Notes under the pieces: model-generated
The model's database searches: none
What the model was told of the DNA's origin: nothing
Seen by the model: the letters and a program-made list of their open reading frames with translations, nothing else
Assembly (NCBI RefSeq): GCF_901538355.1
Contig: NZ_LR593887.1
Coordinates: 3,076,920 to 3,140,919 of the forward strand
From: Tuwongella immobilis
GTDB taxonomy: Bacteria; Planctomycetota; Planctomycetia; Gemmatales; Gemmataceae
DNA length: 64,000 nt
Direction: 5' to 3'
Shown here: positions 11,000 to 36,507 of the stretch, piece after piece
How positions within the stretch are numbered: the first letter of the stretch is position 1
How the letters are laid out: each line of letters opens with the position of its first letter
Translations under genes and position numbers: made by a program

Positions 11000-11071
11000 G
11001 GGCGCTTAGCTCAGCGGTAGAGCGCTCGCCTTACACGCGATCGGTCACAGGTTCGAATCCTGTAGCGCCCA
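11000..11071 (+). tRNA. tRNA-Val (anticodon TAC)
   Basis: A complete cloverleaf can be folded: acceptor GGGCGCT/AGCGCCC, D arm GCTC..GAGC, anticodon stem CTCGC/GCGAT (outer pair C-T mismatched) with loop CTTACAC and anticodon TAC at 11032-11034, and T arm ACAGG-TTCGAAT-CCTGT. The discriminator base is A at 11071 and CCA is not encoded. The T loop and 3' end are duplicated at 36417, showing that the gene is the integration target of the downstream element and was restored by it. The integrase stop codon lies in the anticodon loop on the other strand. Confidence 0.95.
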
Positions 11072-12362
11072 TTTGAATGATTTGCAAGACTTCGTCAAGA
11101 ATCGCAGGATCTGCCATAAGGTCCTGCGATTCTTTCGTTTGCGCTCCAAGTTGTGATAACGCTCGAAGTACCGCGATGATCTGCTGTGCTGCGTTTTGCG
11201 CCCCGATTGCGTCGCTTTTTGCGTCAGGTTTTTCGACCGAAATTCCTTCCGTTGCGGCCTGTTGGAAGTGCTCGTCTCGCACCATCCGATAAAAGGCATC
11301 CGCAATTGCTTCGGTGTGGCCAAGCCAAGCCGCACAGACATGCGACGGGTAGCGGTCGGCCAATTCCGTTGCCCGAGTCGCTCGCATGTTCTGGTAAGGT
11401 TTCTTCCATGGCCGAACGCCAGCCATCAGGCACCAACGGTTCAATTGGGTGCGAAGGTTGACACTGGTTCCTTCTCGATACCGCGTAATCAGCCGATCTT
11501 CTCCAACTCCCGCAATCTCCCAGAGCGTTTCCAGGTACGGTCGCAGTTCCGCGAAGATCGGTACGATGCGGATGCCGCCATCCTCATGATGCTCGGTCTT
11601 GGATGCACGGACAATCATTCGCCCTTCAGCAAGGTTGACATCTGACCAACGCAACGCCATCACTTCGGTCGGACAGCGCAGGCCACCCCACCGCGCCAAT
11701 GCGATGATCGCACGAAATTGCGGACATGGCACCACTTCCATGACTTTTTGAACTTCCGATGCCGGAATGATCTGCTGGCGGGATCGATCCCCGACAACCG
11801 CGAGGCCGCGGATATGCCCGAAGGGATTGGTTTCGATGATCTTGCGAGTGACAGCGGCGTTGAAGAATTCTCGAATCAATCGGGTCCATTTGTTGGCGGT
11901 GGCTCGCGCTCGCCCTTTCAGCAACCCGAGCCGAACCCGGTCGGCATCTGCGGTGGTGATTTCATCCAATCGCATCTCACCTGGCAGCGCCCGAAGCAGC
12001 CACCGAGCCGCCTGGCGCAGGACTGTCATCGTGGAGGCTTTCACCTCGGCAGTTCGGCGATTGAGATGATCTTCGATGAATTCTTGGAGCGTAGGAATAA
12101 CTGCTCTTGGATCGTCGTCGAGCAAGCCCGCTTTGGTCAATCGATCCCGCAGTTGATCGCCAATCTCGGTGACCCAAAGCGCGGTATCGCGGGGTAGGGG
12201 TTGGCCGTTGAGCCGGGTATTCAGAATGAGTTCAATCTGTCTGCAAATCCCATCGGCATCTTTGCGACTGATTTTTCCGAGTCGGACCGTTCGCCGCCGT
12301 CCATCGGGGCCGGTGAACTGAATGCGCCGCCGTCCGTTGGGATCGTTAATCACACTTGCCAC
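11031..12362 (-). CDS. int: Tyrosine-type site-specific integrase
   Basis: The 443-residue recombinase has an N-terminal arm-binding-like region (RRRIQFTGPDGRRRTVRLG), a core-binding SAM-like domain (about 88-190) and a catalytic domain. Catalytic residues visible are R229 (ARWGGLRCPTEVMALRW), R327/R330 (QNMRATRATEL, where the usual box II His is replaced), H349 (AAWLGHT) and the nucleophile Y358 (DAFYRM). The last 13 or so codons are read from the antisense of the tRNA-Val gene, a common arrangement for integrases that target a tRNA 3' end. It is the first gene of the element and points into attL, so it should catalyse integration and, with an excisionase, excision. Confidence 0.93.
   Translation of the reverse strand: MASVINDPNGRRRIQFTGPDGRRRTVRLGKISRKDADGICRQIELILNTRLNGQPLPRDTALWVTEIGDQLRDRLTKAGLLDDDPRAVIPTLQEFIEDHLNRRTAEVKASTMTVLRQAARWLLRALPGEMRLDEITTADADRVRLGLLKGRARATANKWTRLIREFFNAAVTRKIIETNPFGHIRGLAVVGDRSRQQIIPASEVQKVMEVVPCPQFRAIIALARWGGLRCPTEVMALRWSDVNLAEGRMIVRASKTEHHEDGGIRIVPIFAELRPYLETLWEIAGVGEDRLITRYREGTSVNLRTQLNRWCLMAGVRPWKKPYQNMRATRATELADRYPSHVCAAWLGHTEAIADAFYRMVRDEHFQQAATEGISVEKPDAKSDAIGAQNAAQQIIAVLRALSQLGAQTKESQDLMADPAILDEVLQIIQMGATGFEPVTDRV
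11052..11142. repeat. attL: left copy of 91-bp direct repeat
   Basis: Runs from the T loop of tRNA-Val through its 3' end into the last codons of the integrase. It matches 36417-36507 at 87 of 91 positions. The crossover core is probably the tRNA part, beginning TTCGAATCCTGTAGCGCCCA, which is identical in both copies; the four differences all fall in the integrase-tail part. Confidence 0.9.
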
Positions 12363-12824: not shown

Positions 12825-13412
12825 TCAGTGATAGCGCCGGTAGACGGCAACCAGCTTGCCATATACGTGATCCCCCGGTGACAGGGTGTGTGCCCAGCCA
12901 TCGGGGGAACGCAGTTTCCCACGCTGGAGCTTCTTGCAGACACATCCTTCGCCTTCGACCCATGCCACCACAATATCGCCGGATTTCACCTCCACGCCGG
13001 GCCGCACGATGATGAAATCCCCATCTTGGATATGCTCTTCTGTCATAGAGGAGCCACGCACCCGGTAGGCGATGCAATTGGCGAATTCCTGCCCCACCGA
13101 CAGCATCTCCCCATATTCGCCCTCGGCAACCGATGGCGGCCCAACTCCGACCGTCCCCGCCATGATGATCGAGACGCTGTTGGCCAAATTGACGCCGTGG
13201 GATTCTGGCAGATGGCTCGAAAGCGTCCCTTGGCTGATCTTCAGCGCACGCTCGATTTTCAGCGCCGTATCAACATCCGGTTGTCGTCTTCCCGTTTCGA
13301 TATGGGCCACCATTCCTTGCGTGATCCCCACCAGCGCCGCTAACTCCACTTGGGTCATCTTCTGGCGAATTCGCGCGAGCCGGACTGCTTCTCCATAAGC
13401 GTTTGGATCCAT
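12825..13412 (-). CDS. XRE/S24 phage-type repressor (LexA/CI-like)
   Basis: From ATG 13412 the 195-residue protein has an XRE helix-turn-helix (VRLARIRQKMTQVELAALVG, then ITQGMVAHIETGRRQPDVDT) and a C-terminal S24 peptidase domain. The peptidase shows the Ser nucleophile in RGSSMTEEHIQDGD (S122) and a Lys in CVCKKLQRG (160-161). An Ala/Val-Gly stretch (AGTVGVG, 85-91) is a likely self-cleavage region. Such repressors hold prophages or islands silent and are inactivated by RecA after DNA damage, or by a helper-phage protein in satellites. It faces the plus-strand genes across a palindrome-rich operator region. The ribosome site is weak and longer N termini are possible. Confidence 0.87.
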   Translation of the reverse strand: MDPNAYGEAVRLARIRQKMTQVELAALVGITQGMVAHIETGRRQPDVDTALKIERALKISQGTLSSHLPESHGVNLANSVSIIMAGTVGVGPPSVAEGEYGEMLSVGQEFANCIAYRVRGSSMTEEHIQDGDFIIVRPGVEVKSGDIVVAWVEGEGCVCKKLQRGKLRSPDGWAHTLSPGDHVYGKLVAVYRRYH

Positions 13413-13445
13413 GGTCAACCCCAAAAACAATACAGGAGTATTGAT

Positions 13446-13494
13446 TGACAACTGTTTACTGAGTAATATGCCTTGAGTAATAATACGGTTGTCA
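13446..13494. promoter_or_regulatory. Candidate repressor operator region
   Basis: Just upstream of the repressor start lie the inverted pair TGACAAC (13446-13452) / GTTGTCA (13488-13494), the palindrome TTACTGAGTAA (13456-13466) and a second TGAGTAA half site (13474-13480). The symmetrical elements, A+T-rich bases and position between divergent genes fit a lysogeny switch operator. Binding is inferred. Confidence 0.55.
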
Positions 13495-13571
13495 TTTTCC
13501 TGCGTCAAGTGCGTGCCTTGCTCCCCTCATTGGCACCCGCACCCAGAGACTCCCGCACAGGAACTGCCGCG

Positions 13572-14320: not shown

Positions 14321-14375
14321 AAAGGGCAATCAAGGGGCAATCAAGGGGCAGTCAAGGGGCAATCAAGGGGCAGGA
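14321..14375 (+). repeat. Five 11-bp tandem repeats (iteron-like)
   Basis: Five head-to-tail units with consensus AAGGGGCAATC. Units 2 and 4 are exact; the others differ by one to three bases. An A-run (AAAAAAAT) follows within 20 bases. Helically phased short direct repeats beside an A-rich patch are typical of protein-binding iterons, but an origin in the replication gene at 20.5 kb is a stronger candidate. Confidence 0.8.
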
Positions 14376-18851: not shown

Positions 18852-19655
18852 ATGAGCGAAGCATTGTTGGTGTGCATCATGGATGCGTTGGCCAAGCCAT
18901 TCGATCCCAGCGAGATCAAATGGAAGCCAAAGACCATTCGCGGGGACAAAGCCCTGATGCTCCCGTATGTGGACGCACGGGTCATCATGGATCGGCTGGA
19001 TGAAGTGATGACCATCGGCGGCTGGCGCGATTCCTACAAGGAATTGACTAGCGAAGCCGGTTCGGTGGAATGCACGCTGTCGCTGTTCATCAATGGGCAG
19101 TGGATCAGCAAATCCAATGTCGGTTCGCTCAGCGAACAACCCGACGATGGCGACAAACTCAAAGCAGCATATTCCGATGCCCTGAAGCGTGCCGCCGTCA
19201 ACTGGGGAATCGGTCGGTATCTCTACCGATGCGCCCCCCAATGGGTGGCATTCGATCCCGCCAAGAAAGTGCCGGTTGGCCATCCGAAATTGGTCATTCC
19301 ACCGCGAAATCGAAAAGCGTTGTCCGGTGGGGCCATGCTGCCGGATTCACCGATCTGCCAAGAGCAATCGGAGCGGCTCTCGAAGGTAATTCGACAACTC
19401 GCCGAGGCGGTAGATGTCAAGCCGGGGGTGATTTGGCGAAAGTTGTTGTCCAAGCTGAATCTGGGGGCGGAAGTCACCATGAGCCAGCTCACCGTGCAGC
19501 AGTATCAACACGCGTGCAAAATCGTGTTGGATGAACTGGTGCTCCTCGAAACACCAACGCACGTCCCAGTCATTGCCCAGGAACGGGGGGATGCCTTCGA
19601 GCCTCCCCAAGGCAACGCGGCCCCATTCGCATTGGAACCCCCCGCACGAGGATGA
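18852..19655 (+). CDS. Rad52/Sak-type single-strand annealing protein
   Basis: From ATG 18852, 267 residues. The N-terminal 130 residues carry the phage Rad52-like core: KPFDPSEIKWKPKTIRGDKALMLPYVDARVIMDRLDEV, GGWRDSYKEL, and the glycine-aromatic end DALKRAAVNWGIGRYLYRC. These proteins form rings on single-stranded DNA and anneal homologous strands for phage recombination and replication. The C-terminal region is helical (QEQSERLSKVIRQLAEAVDV) and may contact a single-strand-binding protein. It stands at the head of the replication-type genes, as in many phages. Confidence 0.82.
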   Translation: MSEALLVCIMDALAKPFDPSEIKWKPKTIRGDKALMLPYVDARVIMDRLDEVMTIGGWRDSYKELTSEAGSVECTLSLFINGQWISKSNVGSLSEQPDDGDKLKAAYSDALKRAAVNWGIGRYLYRCAPQWVAFDPAKKVPVGHPKLVIPPRNRKALSGGAMLPDSPICQEQSERLSKVIRQLAEAVDVKPGVIWRKLLSKLNLGAEVTMSQLTVQQYQHACKIVLDELVLLETPTHVPVIAQERGDAFEPPQGNAAPFALEPPARG

Positions 19656-19661
19656 TTCGCC

Positions 19662-20054
19662 ATGTCATCGGAATGGATGCCGATCCCGCTCACGCTGGCC
19701 AAAGATGTTCGGCTGGATGAGCTTGCGTTTCGCTTGCGGGTGAATCGCTGCTGGGTGCTGGGTGTGCTGATCGACTTATGGACCACCGCTTACCACCAAG
19801 CCGCCGATGGTGTGTTCCCGGTATTTCGACCGGAGACGCTGGATGCGATCTATGGCATCCATGGTTTGTGCCGCGAGTTGGCCTCAATGGGCTGGCTGGA
19901 GATTGATGGCGACTCGCTCAGGCTGCCGCGCTTTCGGGAACAGTTTGGTGCCGAGGGGAAACGTCGCGCAATGGAAGCACGCCGAAAAGCGAACAACCGA
20001 ACCCGCAGCGAATTACCCGCTCCGCGAAATCCGCGAACCAACCCCGCCGCGTGA
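19662..20054 (+). CDS. Phage replication-type protein, short paralogue
   Basis: From ATG 19662 (GAGGATGATTCGCC upstream), 130 residues. It begins SSEWMPIPLTLAKDVRLDEL with AFRLRVNRCWVLGVLIDLWT, and continues with FPVFRPETLDAIYGIHGLCRELASMGWLEI and RREQF-type basic tail. The same N-terminal domain starts the next gene (ALDWMPVRLSLTSDMRIQQI). This winged-helix-like domain is typical of DnaD/phage replication initiator N termini. Here it stands alone with a short Arg-rich tail, so it may be a duplicated, truncated copy acting as a regulator or partner of the full-length paralogue. Confidence 0.6.
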   Translation: MSSEWMPIPLTLAKDVRLDELAFRLRVNRCWVLGVLIDLWTTAYHQAADGVFPVFRPETLDAIYGIHGLCRELASMGWLEIDGDSLRLPRFREQFGAEGKRRAMEARRKANNRTRSELPAPRNPRTNPAA

Positions 20055-20069
20055 AAGGAGGAATACCCA

Positions 20070-21158
20070 ATGGCACTCGATTGGATGCCGGTGCGGCTCT
20101 CCCTCACCAGTGATATGCGAATTCAGCAGATCGCAGCGCAATTGAACGTCACTCGTTATCACGTTGTGGGAGCGTTGATCGATTTGTGGACCAATGCGAA
20201 CCTTCAGACCATGGAAGGTGTGTTCCGCTATTTCCCGCGTCAGAAGCTGGACATGGTTTATCAACTGCCTGGCTTTGCCCAAGCCTTGGAGGAACTGGGT
20301 TGGATTTCATTCCAAGGCAACAGTTTGAAGATTGAGAACTTTGAAGAACACAACGGAAAAGGAGCCCGTCGTCGGGCGCTCGAAAACCGCCGAAAAGCGA
20401 TTAGCCGTGAAAAACAACGAGTCCACAAGACGGCGCAAGATGTCTTCGACGAAGCGGACGAAAATGCGGACACCCTGACCGATGGTCCGCATGAAGACGG
20501 ACTGTTTGCGCCCGTGGTGCGGACAGATGCGGACAAAAATGCGGACACATGCGCCCCACATGCGGACAAAAATGCGGACACATGCGCCCCACATGCGGAC
20601 AAAAATGCGGACACATGCGCCTCTCATGCGGACAATCGCGGACGTGCTGCGCCCCAAGAACAACAACAATATATACAGAGAGGAAGAATCCTCTCTGTAC
20701 TCTCCTCTTGCTCGGAGCCGGAACAATCCGGCCCCGAACCAACGCCACCCGCCGCCAAACCGAAATCGGTTCCTGGCCTTTGGGGCAAACCACCGATCCA
20801 ATTCGATCCCGCCCAAAGCACCTGGGTGGGGATCACCGATGCGATTCGCTCATCCTGGGCCGTTGCCTGCCCAGCGGTGGACATCGATCAAGAACTGGCC
20901 AAGTCCGCCATATGGGTGGCGAGCATCGGCGCGAAGGGGAAGAAATCCAATTATCGCGCGTTCCTGACCAAGTGGATGTTGCGATCTCAGGAGCAATCCA
21001 GTCGCAAAGGCGGCCATCCGCCTCGGAAGTCGCTTCCGAGACCTCAAGGCGACGCTTCTCCCATCTCCATGAGTCGGGACGAATTACGGGCCCAATTTCG
21101 CAAGATCTCCGAATCCGCTCCACCCGCTCCGGAAGGGGGTGACGAATGGCTGCAATGA
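20070..21158 (+). CDS. Probable replication initiation protein with internal iterons
   Basis: From ATG 20070 (AAAGGAGG, strong site), 362 residues. Residues 1-115 form the same initiator-like domain as the preceding gene (MALDWMPVRLSLTSDMRIQQ, IGNF-type wing replaced by GNSLKIENFEEHNGKG, then RRRALENRRKAISR). Residues about 150-190 are three 11-residue repeats HADKNADTCAP. The C-terminal domain (STWVGITDAIRSSWAVACPAV, KSNYRAFLTKWML) resembles the C-terminal part of phage replication proteins. The repeats plus the A+T-rich patch and palindrome behind them look like a replication origin inside the gene, as in lambda gene O. Helicase loading is the inferred role. Confidence 0.62.
   Translation: MALDWMPVRLSLTSDMRIQQIAAQLNVTRYHVVGALIDLWTNANLQTMEGVFRYFPRQKLDMVYQLPGFAQALEELGWISFQGNSLKIENFEEHNGKGARRRALENRRKAISREKQRVHKTAQDVFDEADENADTLTDGPHEDGLFAPVVRTDADKNADTCAPHADKNADTCAPHADKNADTCASHADNRGRAAPQEQQQYIQRGRILSVLSSCSEPEQSGPEPTPPAAKPKSVPGLWGKPPIQFDPAQSTWVGITDAIRSSWAVACPAVDIDQELAKSAIWVASIGAKGKKSNYRAFLTKWMLRSQEQSSRKGGHPPRKSLPRPQGDASPISMSRDELRAQFRKISESAPPAPEGGDEWLQ
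20527..20699 (+). repeat. 33-bp tandem repeats plus AT-rich patch and palindrome: candidate replication origin
   Basis: Three in-frame 33-bp units (20527-20559, 20560-20592, 20593-20625), each holding two GCGGACA cores; further cores flank them. Thirty bases later comes an A+T-rich patch (CAACAACAATATATA) and a perfect 11-bp palindrome TACAGAGAGGA/TCCTCTCTGTA with a 4-base loop (20674-20699). Order and position inside a replication gene copy the lambda ori layout. Confidence 0.6.
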
Positions 21159-21769
21159 GCGTGCCGGAATGGTACCTCGCGCTGATCGAAAATCATCGCG
21201 CGTTGCTCTTGGTTGATTCCCGAGCGATCGAGCATTTGCATGCCTGGTTCCAGATTTTCAGCCGGGCAGCGTACACCGAAGCGGAATTGGCCAAAGCGTT
21301 TGCGGCGATGGAGGCCGATCCGAAGCGACCGAATTGGCGGAAAGAGCAGTTGGCGTATGTGCAGCAGCACATTTTCCGCCAACGGGAAGCGAGTCGGCGC
21401 GGCGGCGGTGAGGCCCGCGATGGGCCGAAGTGCCCGCTCTGCAGCGGGATGGCTGTTGTCTCGGTGCCGTTCCGGGGCGATGTCTGGGATGGCAATTGGG
21501 TGGCCCCATTTCGCCGCGTCACGGTGGCATGCAGTTGCCCCGCCGGCGAGCGAACCGCCCAGTGGTTCCGCGAGGAAGTCGAGCCCGGCCGCCCCCGATA
21601 CTCGAAACCGATCATGCGACTCGTGGACTACGAGTTTCGCAATCCGCTCTGGCAAGAGCAGTTGCGATACCGCGAGGAAGATGCCCGCGTGGAAAAACAA
21701 GTGCTTGGTCTGACGGAAGAACTGGACTATCGGCTTGGGAAAATTGGAAGAATGCCTCGAAAGGAATAA
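21146..21769 (+). CDS. Hypothetical protein with zinc-ribbon-like cysteines
   Basis: Starts at ATG 21146 inside the end of the preceding gene (a second ATG at 21155 is also possible); 207 residues. N-terminal helical half: MSVPEWYLALIENHRALLLV and AELAKAFAAMEADPKRPNWRKEQLAYVQQHIF. The middle has CPLCSGMAVVSVPF and, 30 residues later, VACSCPAGE, a C-x2-C...C-x-C set that could bind zinc. The tail is charged and helical. Position after a replication-type protein suggests a helper or loader, but no ATP-binding motif is visible. Confidence 0.55.
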   Translation: MAAMSVPEWYLALIENHRALLLVDSRAIEHLHAWFQIFSRAAYTEAELAKAFAAMEADPKRPNWRKEQLAYVQQHIFRQREASRRGGGEARDGPKCPLCSGMAVVSVPFRGDVWDGNWVAPFRRVTVACSCPAGERTAQWFREEVEPGRPRYSKPIMRLVDYEFRNPLWQEQLRYREEDARVEKQVLGLTEELDYRLGKIGRMPRKE

Positions 21770-22074: not shown

Positions 22075-22277
22075 GCGAACGAACAAAGACGTGGTGCGGT
22101 TGCTTTGGAGCATGGTTTCGCACATCGCACCGCTTTGCATCAGTTTTTAATCATCATCCCGTCGGTGAGCGATTCGAGCGAACGAACAATGGGAGCGAGA
22201 GCCGGGATTTATAATGGACCCCGGAAATCGGACCACCGGCTAAGCTACAAAATCCGGCGGTCCATGAGGGGGAATCG

Positions 22278-22568
22278 ATGGCGAAAAAGCGGCAGCGGCA
22301 CTCGGCCGAGTTCACGGCGAAGGTGGCCTTGACGGCGCTGAGAGGGGACAAGACGGTCAACGAATTGGCCGGACAATTTGGTGTCCACCCGACCATGATC
22401 CACGCTTGGAAAAAGCAACTTCTTGATGGAGCTAGCGAGTGATTCGCCAGGGGGACTCCGAAGCCTGAGCAGTCCGAAGGCCCAGGAACTGGGGAGTTGT
22501 TCGAACAAATCGGCCGATTGAAGATGGAACTGGAGTGGATCAAAACAAAAGCTGAGCGGCTCGCCTGA
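22278..22568 (+). pseudogene. IS3 transposase orfA, interrupted by a stop codon
   Basis: The frame opens at ATG 22278 with the OrfA helix-turn-helix (MAKKRQRHSAEFTAKVALTA, VNELAGQFGVHPTMIHAWKKQLL). It hits an in-frame TGA at 22440-22442 after GASE. The same frame then continues with F-ARGTPKPEQSEGPGTGELF and FEQIGRLKMELEWIKTKAERL, ending in TGA 22566-22568. So codon 55 (normally Leu in such proteins) has become a stop. The product would lose its coiled-coil half. Confidence 0.85.
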
Positions 22569-22569
22569 G

Positions 22570-23391
22570 TTGCTCCGGGAGTTGATCGAGCCGAACCACA
22601 AGAAATTGAGCGTCCGCCGACAGTGCGAGCTACTTGGGCTGAACCGCTCGGGATACTACCATGAGCCGGCCGGGGAGAGTCCTGAAAACCTGGAGTTGAT
22701 GGGGGTAATCGACCGGATCTACACCGACTCGCCGTTCTACGGATCGCGCAAGATGGCTGTGGAATTGAGTCGGCTTTCGGGGCGAGAGATCAACCGAAAG
22801 CGGGTCCAGCGTCTGATGCGCCAAATGGGCATCGAAGCGGTCTCCCCGAAGCCGCACTCCAGCAAGCCATGCCGAGGACACCAGGTCTACCCGTACTTGC
22901 TCCGAGGCGTCGCCGTAGAGCGGGTGAATCAGGTGTGGAGTGCGGACATCACGTACGTGCCGATGCCCCAAGGGTTTATGTACCTGGCGGCCGTGATCGA
23001 CTGGTACAGCCGGTTCGTGATCGGCTGGAAGTTGTCGAACACGCTCGACGGCTCGTTCTGCCTGGAACTGCTCATGGAGGCATTGGGAGTTGGTCGCCCC
23101 GAGGTGTTCAACACCGACCAAGGGGCCCAGTTCACGGCCCAGGCGTTCACAACCGCCTTGGAGCAAGCAGGCGTGGCGGTGAGCATGGACGGCAAAGGGC
23201 GTTGTCTGGACAACGTGTTCATCGAACGGCTCTGGAGGAGTGTGAAGCACGAGGATATCTACCCACGCTGCTACGCGAGCGTTCCCGAGTTGGCCGAGGG
23301 TCTCGGGAGATATTTCGAGTTCTACAACCACCGGCGGATCCACCAAGGCTTGGGATACGCCACACCAGCATCAGTGTATCATAGGGGTTAG
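22570..23391 (+). CDS. IS3 transposase orfB (DDE integrase)
   Basis: The 273-residue catalytic subunit begins at TTG 22570 just after the orfA stop; fusion to OrfA by frameshift is the usual expression route. HTH_21-type region near 35-95 (YTDSPFYGSRKMAVELSRLSG, KRVQRLMRQMGIEA). The rve catalytic core shows D in WSADITYVP, D in FNTDQGAQF and E in NVFIERLWRSVK with the K+7 residue. The family-ending YNHRRIHQGLGYATPASVY is intact. The catalytic subunit looks functional, but with orfA interrupted the element may not transpose by itself. Confidence 0.93.
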   Translation: MLRELIEPNHKKLSVRRQCELLGLNRSGYYHEPAGESPENLELMGVIDRIYTDSPFYGSRKMAVELSRLSGREINRKRVQRLMRQMGIEAVSPKPHSSKPCRGHQVYPYLLRGVAVERVNQVWSADITYVPMPQGFMYLAAVIDWYSRFVIGWKLSNTLDGSFCLELLMEALGVGRPEVFNTDQGAQFTAQAFTTALEQAGVAVSMDGKGRCLDNVFIERLWRSVKHEDIYPRCYASVPELAEGLGRYFEFYNHRRIHQGLGYATPASVYHRG

Positions 23392-23705
23392 ATAAGCGAT
23401 CACTGATCAGTATAGCTTAAGTTTCGCACATTTTGGTCTGGCAATTGGGGTCCACTTCAATTCGTTTGTTCGCTTAAAATATTGATTTGGTTGCAATCGC
23501 TGTTGAAACTCTGGTGGAAGTGGGCGCGTTCGATGTGGAGGGCTACCAGAACCGAAATCGACTGGAACAACGGTTCACGGTTGCGATGATTGTCTGTCCA
23601 TTCGCAACATGCGACGATCCACAATCTTCGATGTTCCTCGGCTTTACGCATCGGGTATTCCCATTTCACCGACTACTGAGTCCGAAGAACATCGAGCGAA
23701 CCAGA

Positions 23706-33438: not shown

Positions 33439-33795
33439 CTAACTCGGGTGCCAATCCGCGACTCGCAGATCGAAGACCGGCTGCCATGTGCCTGTTTCGG
33501 CGAGCGATTCCACGGCGATTGAGGTACCGTCAAACGTGCGGAGCCGATGGCTTGGGGGCAGCGAGCGGGCTTCGATCCAGCCGAGCGACTCCTCGAAGAA
33601 GGGATGCTCACCGGTGGTGTCGATCGTCACTCCGCCCGTGAGCGTCAGCCGAAGGATCTCTGCGGTGCGGACGAAGACCTCTTCAACCACTTTACCACTC
33701 GCTGGCGATTCCGGCGAGTGCTCATCGCGGCTGAGAACCCTCTCGCCGAAACCAATTTCCTCGATCGGCTTGCGGGTGCCGTCCTCCAATTGCAC
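33439..33795 (-). pseudogene. Hint (intein/hedgehog-type) domain fragment
   Basis: The frame reads LEDGTRKPIEEIGFGERVLS, then VFVRTAEILRLTLTGGVTID, TTGEHPFFEESLGWIEARSL and VFDLRVADWHP. This is the Hint fold of polymorphic-toxin pretoxin-Hint modules, including the T-x-x-H-P-F block B. The N-terminal catalytic Cys block is missing: an in-frame TAG lies two codons before the GTG. The C-terminal end (usually WHTYFV) is cut short by a stop. So both ends of a formerly larger, probably Rhs- or toxin-like protein have been lost. It marks the right edge of the A+T-rich cargo. Confidence 0.75.
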
Positions 33796-36416: not shown

Positions 36417-36507
36417 TTCGAATCCTGTAGCGCCCATCTGAATGATTTGCAAGACTTCGTTAAGAATCGCAGGATCTGCCATCAGGTCTTGCGATTCTTT
36501 CGTTTGC
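36417..36507. repeat. attR: right copy of 91-bp direct repeat with integrase-tail remnant
   Basis: Starts with the tRNA-Val T loop and 3' end (TTCGAATCCTGTAGCGCCCA) and continues for 71 bases with the last codons of an integrase. In the minus-strand frame this reads QTKESQDLMADPAILNEVLQ then IIQMG. It differs from attL at four positions, and in the protein frame D has become N. Because this part is on the host side of the crossover, an older related integrase tail was already there. Confidence 0.88.

Follow-up and report, generated by a model that had tools for sequence, protein, structure and literature searches.

A predicted lambda-like replication origin inside a PHROG 2509 initiator gene of a Tuwongella immobilis prophage

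The gene at 20070-21158 of the window (the whole 64-kb stretch of DNA analyzed here) very probably encodes a temperate-phage initiator of PHROG 2509 and harbors a phage origin laid out like that of lambda. We propose that ATGCGGACA iterons, situated where this gene encodes the linker of the protein, are recognized by the N-terminal winged-helix domain together with the basic helix that follows it. The iteron-bound initiator copies would then wrap the DNA and cause melting of the tract rich in A+T and purines (about 20655-20699), and the C-terminal part, together with the protein of the next gene, would bring in the host DnaB helicase. The first-pass annotation had proposed a lambda-like origin inside a replication gene; the architecture is backed by more than 100 diverse relatives and by the adjoining genes, but the protein has no match to the lambda O family. 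Iterons and an A+T tract thus lie in a gene whose protein belongs to another family, so the predicted origin is lambda-like by architecture with a different initiator family. This architecture is already known, and the predicted origin differs from known cases in its initiator family, its iteron cores and the match between residues and iterons. The features are listed in Table 1.

Table 1. Positions of the initiator gene, its predicted origin elements and the surrounding prophage features in the window
Feature	Position	Strand	Basis or remark
tRNA-Val (11000-11071) and left attachment repeat (11052-11142)	11000-11142	+	
Tyrosine integrase	11031-12362	-	phrog_1 7.5e-38
CI/LexA-type repressor	12825-13508	-	HTH_3 and Peptidase_S24
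Rad52/Erf-type single-strand annealing protein	18852-19655	+	Rad52_Rad22 1.5e-13; phrog_1097 5.9e-37
Stand-alone DNA-binding-domain copy, 130 aa, lacking iterons and C-terminal part	19662-20054	+	phrog_2509 1.9e-24
Probable phage replication initiator (PHROG 2509), 362 aa, origin-containing gene	20070-21158	+	phrog_2509 2.1e-35, aa 1-130
N-terminal winged-helix domain, aa about 10-88	20097-20333	+	AlphaFold2 model and fold matches
Putative iteron-recognition helix, aa 97-113	20358-20408	+	E105 codon 20382-20384; K109 codon 20394-20396
Upstream iteron pair	20452-20472	+	2 mismatches relative to the array pair
Inverted iteron core GTCCGC	20485-20490	-	
Single iteron core TGCGGACA	20518-20525	+	different reading frame
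Three 33-bp tandem repeats, two iterons per repeat	20527-20625	+	spacing 12 and 21 bp
Final two iteron cores	20627-20643	+	second core (20638) in a different frame
A+T-rich, purine-rich tract, proposed unwinding element	20655-20699	+	same place 3' of the last iteron in most relatives
Inverted repeat TACAGAGAGGA-AGAA-TCCTCTCTGTA	20674-20699	.	11-bp arms, 4-nt loop
Downstream partner gene, putative helicase loader	21146-21769	+	proposed from position only
Right attachment-like repeat	36417-36507	+	96% identical over 91 bp

The initiator gene and its internal repeats

The reading frame of the initiator is intact. Its protein has no Pfam match at E<=1, including to the lambda O family (Pfam phage replication protein O), and a lambda O homologue by sequence was therefore rejected. 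Similarly, no Pfam Rep family was matched, and a plasmid replicon was rejected because only four plasmid records match, at low identity and over the N-terminal domain. Homologues occur in the phages epsilon15, SPN1S, phiPSA1 and Carin1, in the Rac prophage (ydaU) and in a few phage-like plasmid records, and the window gene forms a long branch within the family tree. Sequence searches returned no relatives among solved structures. The AlphaFold2 model of residues 1-133 (pLDDT 81.6, and above 90 for most of residues 11-90) consists of helices and a two-strand wing, and a long helix, 97-132, bears residues 105 and 109. Searching with this fold gave winged-helix matches with Z up to 5.8, including the plasmid initiators 4pt7 and 5kbj (Z about 5.4); these matches are generic, and the Z score shows only the common winged-helix arrangement. 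Based on the model and the alignment, we infer that the long helix from residue 97 might read the iterons.

The 33-bp unit contains two ATGCGGACA sites 12 bp apart and is repeated three times, and Tandem Repeats Finder (TRF) called 3.3 copies at 20527-20635 with 97% matches and a score of 204. Of the 12 copies of TGCGGACA in the window, 9 fall within 20465-20634; whole-window shuffles contain 2.8 on average and 8 at most. The paired-core pattern has 4 matches (0.01 expected), and GATGCGGACA with at most one mismatch has 9 copies within the gene, against at most 5 in codon shuffles. Across the 6.69-Mb genome, the paired pattern with at most 2 mismatches was found 8 times, always within this gene or its sister copy. 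TRF and the shuffle controls thus agree with the reported repeats of two cores each, but the set had been drawn too small. Exact GCGGAC stands in direct orientation at 11 places, starting at 20454, 20466, 20519, 20529, 20541, 20562, 20574, 20595, 20607, 20628 and 20638, and once in reverse at 20485.

Downstream of the array, the most A+T-rich 40 bp of the gene lie at 20660-20699 and overlap the inverted repeat. The A+T-rich patch noted earlier is real but modest, at 65% A+T. The supposed perfect 11-bp palindrome is actually an inverted repeat with a 4-nt loop, although its 11-bp arms are real and a hairpin of equal length arose in none of 100 codon shuffles of the gene. The hairpin with its 11-bp arms is also kept in the second prophage copy. 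Collectively, repeats, A+T patch and inverted repeat were all found again, which confirms the earlier observation. In the set of relatives, the hairpin was seen as such only in gene 20070-21158, and it was rejected as a conserved origin part.

Iterons, proposed unwinding tract and helicase-loading genes in the family

A first scan of genome contigs with the 20070-21158 protein alone gave no matches, and the broad alignment was too diverse for scanning. The enlarged set comprised 302 relatives from viral and genome contigs, with 109 representatives less than 80% identical over the N-terminal domain, and came from proteobacterial, planctomycete and verrucomicrobial phages. Of 22 homologues from phages or plasmids, most contain short repeated cores roughly 110-135 codons into the gene, immediately 3' of the part encoding the DNA-binding domain; the epsilon15 group has GCGGAC and the Rac group GTAACGC. 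The GCGGAC core, which the window gene has in common with the epsilon15 group, stands at the same intragenic place in epsilon15, SPN1S, Carin1, phiPSA1 and others. Most of the enlarged set likewise has iterons just after the DNA-binding domain. GCGTTAC and GTCCGCA were the top repeated words in the first 560 bases of these genes; the two main iteron types are ATGCGGACA and GTAACGC, and GTCACGC, GTGACGC and CTAACGC are rarer. The literature searched contained no paper on intragenic iterons of the PHROG 2509 family, which is not proof of absence.

The array could also be a mere peptide-coding tandem repeat, in which slippage multiplied 11-residue ADKNADTCAPH units within an unstructured linker. 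The 33-bp period keeps the frame, and the sister gene departs from the window gene by small changes inside units, as such a repeat would. However, the extra cores of the window gene lie in other frames, one of them inverted, and the cores of the family occur in all three frames and in both orientations, with neighboring sites mostly 11, 12 or 13 bp apart. Cores in differing frames and orientations indicate that selection acts on the DNA and not on the peptide alone, and we regard a purely peptide-coding origin of the repeats as very improbable.

The tract after the iterons also recurs. In 83 classified genes, the 40 bp following the last iteron exceed the gene mean in A+T by 12-17 points and contain 75-80% purines, and the A+T-richest 40 bp of the gene sit just after the last iteron in 83% of cases, compared with about 19% by chance. 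Additionally, the next genes, 66 of which were scanned including that of the window, encode DnaB (20), IstB/DnaC-like proteins (15), lambda P homologues (10) and DUF6475 proteins (4).

The partner gene in the window has no Pfam family, no convincing PHROG match and no match in phage records. As a known loader it was rejected because no family matched, and its single-sequence model (pLDDT 43) was too poor for use; its position suggests a helicase loader. Relatives of the partner gene in the same bacterial family adjoin several other initiator-like gene types with differing intragenic repeats. At two further loci of the T. immobilis genome, L342:835-954 and L343:835-954 (genome positions 6.416 and 1.958 Mb), an initiator-like gene of a different type has eight internal tandem 12-bp repeats of the ACCTGTTAAGGT type, and the gene after it is related to the partner gene at 39% identity. 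In other genomes of the same family, initiator-like genes adjoining partner-gene relatives contain 11-bp or palindromic repeats (L336:857-944 and L341:758-1007). In another genome (L338:882-1456), a relative appears frameshifted between the DNA-binding helix and a TGTCCCA-type repeat set.

A different role for the same sites would be that of operators, through which the initiator or the stand-alone domain controls transcription or copy number while the true origin lies elsewhere. Iteron autoregulation is common in plasmids, and the stand-alone copy of the DNA-binding domain just upstream carries E and K at the equivalent positions and could recognize these sites too. Against this, the sites are located well within the gene rather than at its beginning, nothing resembling a promoter was detected near them, and the sites of the relatives are followed by an A+T-rich tract beside helicase-loading genes. 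We consider operators without an origin improbable.

Residues 105 and 109 and the iteron class

The representatives were classed by iteron type. In the GCGGAC class (A), K109 and D/E105 are found in 38 of 38 sequences. In the GTAACGC class (B, n=40), V109 occurs in 38, T105 in 35 and K109 in 0. Columns 105 and 109 split both classes completely, at one full bit each (78 of the 109 representatives; Fisher p = 4e-23, uncorrected for kinship). In the window protein these two residues are E105 and K109, and its gene contains the GCGGAC iterons that the residue pattern predicts. Because the pattern was first noticed in an 18-sequence alignment, the remaining representatives serve as a test; outside this discovery alignment, a gene contains on average 2.53 copies of the predicted motif, compared with 0.11 for the other motif and 0.24 in codon shuffles.

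Moreover, in 11 non-overlapping gene pairs that are 60-82% identical over residues 1-92, the class and residues 105/109 differ together, and about 11 class changes were counted on a parsimony tree with few supported branches. Loci L207 and L238, for example, are 77% identical and belong to different classes. Owing to the scarcity of supported branches, a strict phylogenetic test of independent switches was not significant, with 3 usable pairs on well-supported branches, of which 2 agreed and 1 did not differ. The non-differing pair may involve row L325, a 2-2 tie in the tree test that was counted as class B thereafter. The helix and the iterons are about 100 bp apart, so recombination that passed on both together is a possible partial cause of the match.

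In each of the two prophages of this genome, the initiator gene is closely preceded by the stand-alone domain, and among the loci scanned the complete tandem arrangement of stand-alone domain and initiator was found only there. The stand-alone domain may compete for the iterons. More broadly, the relatives may represent a very widespread and barely studied initiator family of proteobacteria, planctomycetes and verrucomicrobia in which residues 105 and 109 would set GCGGAC versus GTAACGC and would have switched repeatedly together with the sites, with the stand-alone domain of this genome as a possible competitor controlling initiation. We give this wider proposal an even chance.

The host element, known origins and biological meaning

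The integrase of the window element adjoins tRNA-Val, the 3' part of which is repeated 25.4 kb downstream. A sister initiator gene, 96% identical (phrog_2509 1.8e-36), lies at 4.317 Mb in a prophage that adjoins tmRNA; this prophage has terminase, portal and head genes and is entered in IMG/VR as a 43.6-kb virus. The two elements share an early region that is 91% identical across 4.7 kb, as well as a 1.6-kb segment that precedes the terminase. In the sister array, one core is lost by a two-base change, and six extra bases lie 3' of the array. The window element has none of the sister's terminase large subunit, portal, head and tail genes and, by its gene content, is a defective prophage. Without head and tail genes, it would at most replicate after excision and form no particles alone.

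Several further observations concern the element. In the sister prophage region, an element 98% identical to the IS3-like element at 22210-23459 stands at the far end. Between 23706 and 33363, within the att-flanked element, a low-G+C segment (44-50%, compared with 56-58%) encodes RND efflux genes, an outer-membrane factor and a two-component system, and looks like cargo. The 11-bp tandem repeat GGGCAATCAAG, present in 4.5 copies at 14324-14372, lies between the genes for the repressor and KilA-N, close to the element's left end. At the edge of the prophage remnant, a reading frame on the minus strand (33439-33795) has an intein/Hint-like sequence (QLEDGTRKPIEEIGFGERVLSRDEHSPE...), as judged by eye.

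Since the element is defective, its origin may no longer be used. The array would then be a former origin inactivated through prophage decay, with only the sister copy at 4.32 Mb functional; this concerns present-day activity alone and is compatible with the anatomy of a PHROG 2509 initiator and its origin. The missing terminase large subunit, portal and head genes, the IS-like element and the low-G+C segment are in line with such decay. In contrast, the initiator reading frame, iterons, tract and partner gene are all intact, and all six array cores are present in the window array while the sister has lost one. We regard loss of function as possible but doubtful.

In lambda and Stx phages, the origin consists of iterons and, after them, an A+T-rich region midway through initiator gene O, beside the helicase-loader gene (PMC7466680). 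The window gene resembles this in having iterons and then an A+T-rich tract inside the initiator gene, and the 10 relatives adjoining a lambda P homologue extend the likeness. In contrast to these phages, the window protein has no Pfam match and its gene a different iteron core and more cores, and in PHROG 2509 relatives the spacing is 11-13 bp and pairs are often inverted. With the initiators of epsilon15, SPN1S, phiPSA1 and Rac (YdaU), the window gene shares family membership and the intragenic iteron site, but it differs in its C-terminal part, in its partner gene and in having a long tandem array where relatives have 2-4 sites. An active origin (oriJ) has been reported for the Rac prophage (PMC3945230), whose ydaU homologue carries GTAACGC iterons, the other iteron class. 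Iteron plasmid initiators (RepA/RepE type, pSK41 RepA) are similar in combining a winged-helix protein with directly repeated sites, which the modeled window protein is predicted to bind, whereas the predicted origin of the window lies inside the gene.

Collectively, these comparisons would make the origins of many uncharacterized prophages and phage-plasmids locatable from sequence alone, down to single predicted binding sites. The matched variation of protein and site found in nature would make initiator-origin specificity, and hence the compatibility of co-resident prophages, directly testable. The lambda principle of an origin within the initiator gene would thereby extend to a family that has no detectable similarity to lambda O, and to planctomycete phages.
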